Assembly: GCA_903900235.1 (NCBI GenBank)
Contig: CAIUMH010000093.1
Location: 62,001 to 126,000, forward strand
Direction of reading: 5' to 3'
Length of the DNA: 64,000 nucleotides
From: an uncultured Actinomycetes bacterium
GTDB lineage: Bacteria > Actinomycetota > Acidimicrobiia > Acidimicrobiales > RAAP-2
Every line of letters begins with the position of its first letter. Position 1 is the first letter of the stretch. The notes under the pieces were generated by a model, which searched no databases, was not told where the DNA came from, and saw only the letters and a list, made by a program, of their open reading frames with translations. Shown here piece by piece: positions 33,552 to 47,041 of this stretch. A program made the position numbers and the translations under genes.

Positions 33552-33600
33552 ACCACTACATCTTGTGGTCATCAGATCTAGTGCATCTAGATACTGTGGT
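33552..33600. promoter_or_regulatory. Probable pair of NrdR boxes upstream of nrdJ
   Basis: ACCACTACATCTTGTGGT (33552-33569) is an imperfect palindrome. A related sequence, GCATCTAGATACTGTGGT (33583-33600), matches it at 12 of 18 positions and starts 31 bp later, which is three helical turns. Paired, phased boxes of this kind upstream of ribonucleotide-reductase genes are the known layout for NrdR repression. No nrdR gene is in the window. The divergent glycerol kinase might share the region. Confidence 0.6.
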
Positions 33601-33735
33601 CATTACAGCACTGTAGTTACGTATCTGTCAACGCTATTGGACGCGCGTACCTGCAGGTCAGAGGCCGTTCGCGAAAGTTTGCGCGTGATACCTCCTCGGA
33701 GACACCCAACGGTCGAGGCGATAGCGTCTTGCCAC

Positions 33736-43363: not shown

Positions 43364-45889
43364 ATGCGAACATGGTCGACATTCTTTCATCGCCGAATCA
43401 TCACGTGGCTCGCCGTCGTTGTGGCTGTCGTTGGACTCGCGACCATCGGAGAAGGGTCCCGCCGAGCATCGGCGGCACCCGGTGATGGCCCAGCCCCCTG
43501 CAGCGCAGGGCTCCCCCCGAGCCCCTATCGGGGCTACTGCGGTACCTACAATGGAATGAACACGTACTGGGGGTCTTATGGCCTGGGATTCCCCACCCCT
43601 GATGGCTGGGGCTTCTGCGCCGAGCGACCGGGCTCCGGCTCGGCCTATCCCTCGCCGAGTTACGCCTACCAGCTCTCGGGCCCACCGGCCGGTGCAGACG
43701 CCAGCCTCATGGGGCCACTCGGCTATGCGTACTCCACGGCCACCGTGCAGGGCTTCTGGAATGGCGCCGCCGGCCAGTTCACCGCCGACCAAGCCGCAGT
43801 CGCCGGCAAGCTGCTCTATGACGCCGCCATCTGGCACGCCGCAACCGGGACGATGGACTCCGGCGTTCAGGCCGCCTACACCCAACTGCTGACCTGGATG
43901 GTCGCCGCGTCGGGAGCAACCGGGCCACCCGGGTTGGCGGTCACACTGGTCGGCGGTGGGGTCACCTTCACCACGACCGCCACCATCCGCACCCGAGCCG
44001 TGTTTCCCGGGTCTGGCAACCCGGTGAGCGGTGTCACCGTCCTCGTTGGGCTGAGCAATGCCACCTTCGACGGAACCGGCGGTGCGACGAGCGCCCTCGG
44101 GGCCACTGACGCCAATGGTCGGCTCGACCAACCCATCACGGCCTCGGGGTCGGGTCCGGTCTCCGTGACGGTGACGTCGCTGGCGCGGGTCGGCCGACCC
44201 ACGCTCGAATTCTTCCGACCCACCGCGTATCTGACCTCCGCCCAGACCATCGCCGCGGGGAGCTCGCCGATCTATCAGGCGGCCAGTGCCACCTTCAGCT
44301 CGCAGGCGCCCCCACCGACGACCGGCACCATCTCGGTTCTCAAGAGCGGTGACGACACCGCCTACTTCGGGATCGCTGAGGCCCAGTTCCAGATCCTCTC
44401 CGGCTCGAACGTGCTGGCCACGGTGGTCACCGACGAGAAGGGCTCGGCTGGTCCTTCTGCGCCGATTCCACCCGGGACCTATACCGTGCACGAGTCGGTC
44501 GCTCCGCCGGGCTACCTGATGGCTCCGGACCAGACGGCCGTCGTGACCGCCGGTGCCGACACGCTGGTCTCGTTCACCGGCGTCAATGGCGACAACATCG
44601 AGCCGGCCACCCTCGACCTGCACAAGACCTCGACGGCCACCGGCGAAGCGCTCAGCGGTGCGGTGCTCTCTGTTCGCTATGACCAAGCGAACGACGGCAC
44701 GTTCCCCACCGACCTCGGCACCTGCACCACCGGAGCCGACGGCTCGTGCCGTCCATCGGGCAACGACGGCGTCAATCTCCTGCCCGGTCGCTACCGCATC
44801 GAGGAGATCTCGCCGCCACCCGGCTATGCCCTCGACCCATCGAGTGTGGTCATTCTCGATCTTGGGCCCGGCCAAGCAGGATCCGTGACGTTCCGAGACC
44901 CGCCGCTCGTCCCGCAGTCCTTTCTCAAGGTCGCCACCGGCAACGTGGATCCGACCCGGGCCATCCTTTCGGGAGCCACCTTTGTCGTCTCCACGCCAGC
45001 GGGGGCACCGGTCACCTCATGTGTCACCGGCACCGACGGAACCTGCACCACCGAGTCGCTTCTCATCGCCGACCGACCCTATTGCTGGGCCGAGACCATC
45101 GCCCCTGTGGGCCTCGACACCGGAGGATCGGGGTGCTTCACCGCTGCGAGCTCGGCGACACCAATCCCGATCACCGTGGAGGACCCAGGCCGGTGGGTCG
45201 AGATCCGAGCCCGAAAGGTCGATGCGGCCGCACCCACCATTGGTGTCCCCGGGGCAGTCTTCGACCTCTATCGCATGGACCACGGAACCGGTCCCGACCA
45301 TCCAACGCCACCAGTCTCGGCCCACGAGCTCTCCGGCGGCACCTGGGTCGATCGCGCCACAGGCCACCACGATGGACTCGCCACGTTCGCGCTCCAACTG
45401 CCCGACTACGCCTACTGCGTGATCGAGCACCAACCTCCCTCGGGCTACGTGGCCGACCCATCGGCCCACTGCACTGACGTTCTGACTGGAACCACGGCCT
45501 CGCCACCGACCACGGCGACCATCGAGGTGGCCGACGCAGCCCAGATGATCTCGCTCATCGTCGACAAGACCAATGCCGCCGAGCCCGGCACCGGTGTTCC
45601 CGGAGCTACCTACGACCTCTACGCCCAAGCCCCCTTCCCTGCCGCCACCCCCATTCCCGATCCCTCGGCACCCGTCCACCCTGGCCTTAGCTGGTTTGCC
45701 AGCGGGACCTCAGGGCCCGACGGCCACCTGAGCTTCGTCATCCCCGCCGGACACGCCTGGTGTCTCGCGGAGCGGAGCGCTCCGGCCGGCTTCATCCTCG
45801 ATACGGGTCTCCACTGCACCGCCGTGCTGAACACCGACACCTCGAGATCCGATCGCACGGTCGCCATGGCCGAGACGATCGACTCGTGA
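43364..45889 (+). CDS. SpaA-repeat surface protein, N-terminal part (interrupted by frameshift)
   Basis: 841 aa up to the TGA. MRTWSTFFHRRIITWLAVVVAVVGL is a signal peptide. An N-terminal module of about 230 residues has conserved Cys (YRGYCGTYNG; GWGFCAE) and an AAIW motif that resembles thioester-domain adhesins. After a beta-rich linker come five SpaA/prealbumin-like domains (starting near 323, 418, 519, 611 and 729). Each has a strand Lys and a closing Glu such as VLKSGDD...VHESVAPPGYL, which fits isopeptide-linked folds. Homology continues in the next frame from 45886, so the protein is incomplete as read. Divergent from the PH-domain gene. Confidence 0.85.
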   Translation: MRTWSTFFHRRIITWLAVVVAVVGLATIGEGSRRASAAPGDGPAPCSAGLPPSPYRGYCGTYNGMNTYWGSYGLGFPTPDGWGFCAERPGSGSAYPSPSYAYQLSGPPAGADASLMGPLGYAYSTATVQGFWNGAAGQFTADQAAVAGKLLYDAAIWHAATGTMDSGVQAAYTQLLTWMVAASGATGPPGLAVTLVGGGVTFTTTATIRTRAVFPGSGNPVSGVTVLVGLSNATFDGTGGATSALGATDANGRLDQPITASGSGPVSVTVTSLARVGRPTLEFFRPTAYLTSAQTIAAGSSPIYQAASATFSSQAPPPTTGTISVLKSGDDTAYFGIAEAQFQILSGSNVLATVVTDEKGSAGPSAPIPPGTYTVHESVAPPGYLMAPDQTAVVTAGADTLVSFTGVNGDNIEPATLDLHKTSTATGEALSGAVLSVRYDQANDGTFPTDLGTCTTGADGSCRPSGNDGVNLLPGRYRIEEISPPPGYALDPSSVVILDLGPGQAGSVTFRDPPLVPQSFLKVATGNVDPTRAILSGATFVVSTPAGAPVTSCVTGTDGTCTTESLLIADRPYCWAETIAPVGLDTGGSGCFTAASSATPIPITVEDPGRWVEIRARKVDAAAPTIGVPGAVFDLYRMDHGTGPDHPTPPVSAHELSGGTWVDRATGHHDGLATFALQLPDYAYCVIEHQPPSGYVADPSAHCTDVLTGTTASPPTTATIEVADAAQMISLIVDKTNAAEPGTGVPGATYDLYAQAPFPAATPIPDPSAPVHPGLSWFASGTSGPDGHLSFVIPAGHAWCLAERSAPAGFILDTGLHCTAVLNTDTSRSDRTVAMAETIDS

Positions 45890-46344
45890 CCGTCCAAGGG
45901 TTCAAGTTCAACGCCAGACAGCCGGGCACTGGGATCCCCGGAGCGAGCTACGCCCTCTTCGTGGTCGGCAGTCTGCCGGCCGGCTTCATCGGGCCATTGG
46001 TCCCGGACTGGCTCCGCGTGCCGGCGGACATGGCTCTCTTCGCTATCGGGATCAGTGACGAGTCCGGGCACCTGACATTCTCTGTGCCCATCGGCCACGC
46101 TTGGTGCATGGCCGAGATCAGTGCCCCACCGGGCTACATCAAGGACACCGGTCTGCACTGCACTGCGGTGCTAAATCACTCGAGCGACCCGATCGCCATC
46201 GAGATCGCCCTGCCCGAGACAGCCCAGCCCGAGCTGGCGCAGACCGGCATGCGGTTGCCTCTGGGGGCGGCACTGATACTGATCGTGACCGGTACTGGCC
46301 TTCGCCAGGCCAGCCGTCGGAGGCGTCGAACCACCGCCGGGTGA
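45886..46344 (+). CDS. SpaA surface protein, last repeat and LAQTG anchor (-1 frame)
   Basis: 152 codons. It begins VTVQGFKFNARQPGTGIPGASYALF, the sixth SpaA repeat of the same type as ISLIVDKTNAAEPGTGVPGATYDLY in the preceding part. It ends with LAQTGMRLPLGAALILIVTGTG and Arg residues, a full LAXTG sorting signal. Start codon GTG overlaps the upstream TGA (GTGA). It lacks a signal peptide, so it can act only if fused to the previous part. A single missing base near 45886 (or a -1 frameshift) would join the two into one protein of about 993 residues. Confidence 0.85.
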   Translation: MTVQGFKFNARQPGTGIPGASYALFVVGSLPAGFIGPLVPDWLRVPADMALFAIGISDESGHLTFSVPIGHAWCMAEISAPPGYIKDTGLHCTAVLNHSSDPIAIEIALPETAQPELAQTGMRLPLGAALILIVTGTGLRQASRRRRRTTAG

Positions 46345-46399: not shown

Positions 46400-47041
46400 G
46401 TGAGCACCAACCCACGCGGCCTCGACAAGTTGGCCCAGGGTATCGCCGAGCAGGTTGTCCGCCGGGTCGTGTCAGCCCTCGACGTGAACGCCCTCATGCG
46501 TCAGATCGATATCGACGAGCTCATGGATCGCGTCGACCTCGACGCCCTGGCCGAACGGATCGATGTCGATGCGATCGTGGCATCGGTGGATGTCGACGCC
46601 ATGATGGAGGCCGTCGACGTAGAGGCCATTGTCGAGCGCGTGGACGTCGATGCGCTCGTGGATCGGGTCGATGTGGCCAAGATCATCGAACGGGTCGACG
46701 TTCAGGCGATCGTTGACCGGATCGACGTCGATGCCCTGGTGGCTCGGATCGACCTCGACGCGCTGCTCGAGCGAGTCTCGATCGAGGACCTCATCGATCG
46801 GGTCGACGTCGATGCCCTCGTCAGCCGCACCGAGCTCGGATCGATCATCGCCCGATCCACCACCAGCGTGCTCACCGAGGGTCTCGACCTGATCCGCAGT
46901 CAGGGCGTCGGCCTCGACGACTTCACCAACCGTTGGGTCAATCGCATCCTTCGTCGCAAGGGTGAGCTTCCGGCCGGCCCGCCGCTTCTCCTTCCCGCAG
47001 CCCTCACCGCTGGACCCGCTCCCGACGAGGCCTCCCCATGA
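46400..47041 (+). CDS. Protein of 14 tandem nonapeptide repeats
   Basis: 213 aa, GTG start. Residues 27-152 consist of 14 consecutive nine-residue units of the form (V/I)D(V/L)DA(I/L)(V/M)xR, for example IDVDAIVAS, VDVDAMMEA, VDVDALVDR, IDLDALLER, each beginning with a V/I-Asp step. The regular Asp, hydrophobic and Arg positions suggest an extended solenoid or amphipathic fold. The C-terminal 60 residues contain SQGVGLDDFTNRWVNRILRRKG. No known family. Its stop overlaps the RDD gene (ATGA), so the two are expressed together. Confidence 0.88.
   Translation: MSTNPRGLDKLAQGIAEQVVRRVVSALDVNALMRQIDIDELMDRVDLDALAERIDVDAIVASVDVDAMMEAVDVEAIVERVDVDALVDRVDVAKIIERVDVQAIVDRIDVDALVARIDLDALLERVSIEDLIDRVDVDALVSRTELGSIIARSTTSVLTEGLDLIRSQGVGLDDFTNRWVNRILRRKGELPAGPPLLLPAALTAGPAPDEASP

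Follow-up and report, generated by a model that had tools for sequence, protein, structure and literature searches.

A one-base frame break between an actinobacterial SpaA-repeat adhesin and its LAXTG sorting signal

The gene for a large repeat adhesin in an uncultured member of the Acidimicrobiales is divided by a one-base change of frame that places its export signal and its sorting motif in different frames. We consider it probable, at roughly two chances in three, that a continuous ancestral adhesin gene was broken in this genome by a real and recent loss of one base, leaving a truncated product that is exported and unanchored. Under this reading, one uninterrupted gene would ancestrally have encoded a secreted adhesin with multiple SpaA/prealbumin-like repeats; one base would have been lost just before the last repeat, in the source genome (G000) alone, shifting the frame and bringing in an immediate TGA; and the population sampled would truly carry this shift as a recent mutation. 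The truncated product would then be exported without its anchor and be lost or loosely held, and the remainder of the gene would not be usefully translated.

The first open reading frame (ORF1, 43364–45889, forward strand) of the window, by which we mean the whole stretch of 64,000 nucleotides analyzed here, runs from an ATG at 43364 to a premature TGA at 45887–45889 and encodes the 841-residue body of the adhesin. Its product consists, in order, of an apparent signal peptide (MRTWSTFFHRRIITWLAVVVAVVGLATIGEGSRRASA, 43364–43474, forward strand, judged by eye), a conserved cysteine-containing domain, an Ig-like domain of the invasin/intimin type, and SpaA-type repeats. The second frame (ORF2, 45886–46344) lies on the same strand in the −1 frame, from a GTG at 45886 to a TGA at 46342–46344; its 152 residues comprise the last SpaA-type repeat and a sorting signal of the LAXTG type, with neither a signal peptide nor an evident start of its own. 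The LAQTG motif (46234–46248, forward strand) is followed by a hydrophobic stretch and then an arginine-rich tail. The GTG (45886–45888) overlaps the TGA of ORF1 in the string GTGA, and the two products together come to 841 + 152 = 993 residues. This layout bears out the first-pass annotation, which had described a SpaA-repeat protein stopping at this TGA, a continuation of the repeat type in the −1 frame up to LAQTG (seen again in the translation of ORF2 and in the alignment with congeners), a candidate GTG start overlapping the TGA, and a restored protein of about 993 residues.

In all five other species of the genus (G001 to G005), the orthologue is one uninterrupted frame of 582–1122 codons, counted from stop to stop. 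Residues 134–976 of the protein of the nearest relative, G005, match ORF1 (66.8% identity), and ORF2 (59.2% identity) begins at residue 977. At the junction, the protein alignment sets ORF1 residue 841 and ORF2 residue 1 against G005 residues 976 and 977, with zero residues lost, and the DNA alignment with the congeners has a one-column gap in the window sequence. The homology moves from the ORF1 frame to the −1 frame within 45874–45889 (forward strand), an interval one base short relative to the congeners. ORF1 and ORF2 are consecutive parts of one protein, separated by a one-base shift without loss of a residue; the split is not a matter of chance, because both frames align, one directly after the other, with the same congener proteins. 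The GTG at 45886 corresponds in all five congeners to a repeat-internal codon for Val or Ile and, judged from this alignment, is the homologue of that internal codon and not a start. Coupled genes often overlap by GTGA, as the two frames do at this junction; it is nonetheless highly improbable that ORF2 is a second gene whose translation begins at the GTG by coupling across the overlap, given the correspondence to an internal repeat codon in every congener, the lack of a Shine–Dalgarno-like stretch upstream of the GTG (read from the sequence), and the absence of a two-gene form from all relatives. The product of such a gene, bearing a sorting signal without a signal peptide, would also remain cytoplasmic.

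The surroundings of the adhesin are conserved in G005, where it is flanked, in the same order, by homologues of the genes lying between about 35.2 and 47.2 kb of the window. The downstream neighbor (46400–47041) encodes a protein without a Pfam match, most of which is built from copies of a short IDVDALVDRVDV-type repeat; homologues of this gene adjoin the adhesin in G005, G004, and G002.

We surveyed the junction across the family with a profile that covers the final two repeats together with the anchor, searched against 172 genomes, of which 37 match. When the source genome and G029, whose match is split over two contigs, are subtracted, the junction is read through in all 35 other genomes with a spanning match; profile positions 1–140 and 141–285 fall in different frames only in the source genome. 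Three candidates for a second break were rejected: the TGA flagged in G110 leaves the protein uninterrupted, the interruption in L034 comes from ambiguous bases in its record (consecutive N, read as X), and the match in G029 is merely spread over its two contigs. The profile search found no intact second copy of the adhesin in the source genome, and plasmid records gave no match; the named relatives of the gene come from metagenome assemblies of uncultured Acidimicrobiaceae or actinobacteria. The view of the first-pass annotation that a single protein is split here by a frame change, its second half meaningful only when fused to the first, draws strong support from these results, and the comparison of related genomes that it proposed finds the locus continuous in 35 of 35 and in the two-gene form in none. 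On this comparative evidence, we judge that the frame break is private to the lineage of the source genome and that the adhesin gene is otherwise an ordinary one with predicted LAXTG anchoring.

A break private to one genome may lie in the organism or in its record. ORF2 is still open, with a GC3 of 0.816 compared with 0.794 in ORF1; it keeps its coding character, and therefore the break is either recent or an assembly error, although the open frame and the GC3 value are equally expected under both. Private amino acid changes number 17 versus 6 in ORF2 (relative-rate test, p = 0.035) and 89 versus 70 in ORF1 (p = 0.15), and the excess in ORF2 relative to ORF1 is not significant (Fisher p = 0.12); faster change of ORF2 on the branch of the source genome is thus a hint too weak to use, and the relative-rate and codon-position tests on ORF2 are too weak for dating the break. 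An intact gene in the organism, with a single base dropped from the consensus, would fit a fragmented source, a 2.40-Mb draft of 157 contigs with the smallest at 1.5 kb, as it would the 35 of 35 comparable relatives that are intact and the ORF2 frame that is free of stop codons and retains a coding GC3. However, the junction lies outside any homopolymer, and homopolymers are where most consensus indels arise. In addition, a scan for frame breaks in a 255-kb sample of the genome, on which our estimate of the rate rests, found the adhesin to be the only genuine break, with no other in the approximately 124 kb that have congener homologues; a scan of the window alone again returned the adhesin as the sole genuine break. 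In the tested part of the assembly indels are not abundant, which favors a real mutation, though without proof and not strongly, as an error may still fall once in every few hundred kilobases. We regard an assembly error as an unlikely but serious alternative to a real, recent mutation.

Other candidate breaks in the window were set aside. Those at 33.66 and 33.71 kb fall in a conserved stretch upstream of a gene that is itself intact, and one at 35.96 kb is an antisense extension, judged by coordinates. Strong conservation with G005 marks the region at about 33590–33690, upstream of a kinase-like gene with its start near 33686, and suggests that this is a conserved regulatory region.

The closest documented split of a sortase-anchored protein that we found is in Bifidobacterium breve UCC2003, in which the sortase-dependent pilin genes bbr_0113a/b and bbr_1889a/b are each divided by a G-tract into an ORF with a Sec signal and an ORF with an LPXTG motif, and variation in the length of the tract (G11/G12 at bbr_0113) switches expression (PMC9187656). 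The adhesin shares with these pilins a signal peptide in the first ORF, a sorting signal in the second, and a change of frame between them; unlike them, it has no G-tract and its relatives are unsplit, and the frameshifted gene is itself ordinary. A contingency switch requires a repeat tract. In the 230 bp that precede the junction we found no homopolymer of at least five bases; the adhesin gene contains no tandem repeat, and the junction itself has no short repeat. Despite the shared architecture, we consider it very unlikely that an intact allele is present in part of the population and is switched by slipped-strand mispairing, given these results and the lack of the split in any relative, and very improbable that the population retains the split allele as one setting of a repeat-free switch between anchored and released adhesin.

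A programmed −1 ribosomal frameshift, which would yield secreted and anchored forms from one gene, requires a slippery site and usually a stimulatory structure. ORF2 lies in precisely the −1 frame that such a shift would use and has kept its coding character; yet no heptamer of the form X XXY YYZ occurs in frame within 45691–45895, in the overlap of the ORF1 and ORF2 frames, in line with the first-pass annotation, which had seen no classic one. The 100 nt downstream fold no better than shuffled sequences (z 0.52, pseudoknot-free folding). Because 35 of 35 relatives need no such shift, the recoding would need to have arisen in this species alone, and we give it next to no credence. Phase variation or contingency mutation and a programmed shift, two of the three causes put forward in the first-pass annotation, are therefore unsupported, as the locus shows neither a repeat tract nor a slippery site, an RNA structure, or a conserved split; assembly error, the third, remains alongside a real private mutation.

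The Pfam model PF17802 (SpaA) matches ORF1 over three stretches with a score of 116.7 bits (cut-off 23.1, E = 5.1e-34), and by this domain architecture ORF1 is classed as a SpaA-repeat surface adhesin. ORF2 on its own scores 18.1 bits, under the same cut-off of 23.1. Collagen adhesins and pilus proteins of solved structure are among the sequence matches. The prealbumin-like PF17802 repeats are shared with the LPXTG-anchored major pilins of the SpaH/EbpB family and with collagen-binding adhesins; in contrast to the SpaH/EbpB pilins, the adhesin is sub-threshold for NF033902 (43.5 vs. 95 bits), carries LAXTG in place of LPXTG, and may or may not polymerize. In a fold search with the N-terminal region only the Ig-like half was matched, the best hit being to 1cwv (Z 12.4, rmsd 2.0, 89 residues). 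The modeled Ig-like domain resembles domains of invasin and intimin, which supports a putative binding role. The domain preceding it (43475–43918) has three invariant cysteines, one in an FCA-type motif, and a layout of strands followed by three helices, and in these respects resembles the description of thioester-domain (TED) adhesins (PMC4450167). It has no Pfam match, to a thioester domain or otherwise, however, and the glutamine of the helical TQxxphiW motif is not conserved; the structure model of this domain alone, the first half of the N-terminal region, is of low confidence.

The sorting signal that the first-pass annotation reported is present; as LAQTG it belongs to the LAXTG type used by class E sortases and not to the classical LPXTG type. 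Class E sortases, which use LAXTG signals, have been described from soil and freshwater Actinobacteria, and their substrates include the chaplins of Streptomyces coelicolor, which are anchored by SrtE (PMC5148588). An LAXTG motif, a hydrophobic segment, and a basic tail, as in class E substrates, occur in ORF2, and the motif in the five congeners is LANTG, LAFTG, or LAATG. The source genome encodes one PF04203 sortase, for which the best NCBIfam model is class E, at 154.3 bits just under the cut-off of 160. The intact adhesin would be anchored to the wall through LAXTG, most likely by this class E-like sortase, with the difference from the chaplins that it is a large repeat adhesin and its anchoring is predicted. 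Export signal and sorting motif lie in one frame in the congeners and on different frames, hence not on the same polypeptide, in the source genome. A second, more divergent sortase is present in four of the five congeners (G001, G003, G004, and G005) and was not found in G000 or G002; its absence from G000 could reflect loss or the incompleteness of the draft. Our search of the literature returned no study of sortases from Acidimicrobiia.

The two adjacent predicted proteins at this locus should be read with caution, as they are one gene. If the mutation is real, the predicted product is an unanchored, secreted protein, and the locus shows cleanly, though with little reach beyond one genome, how an adhesin of an uncultured actinobacterium can lose its wall anchor through a frame break. 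Should reads reveal mixed alleles, the loss of the anchor would vary within a natural population.
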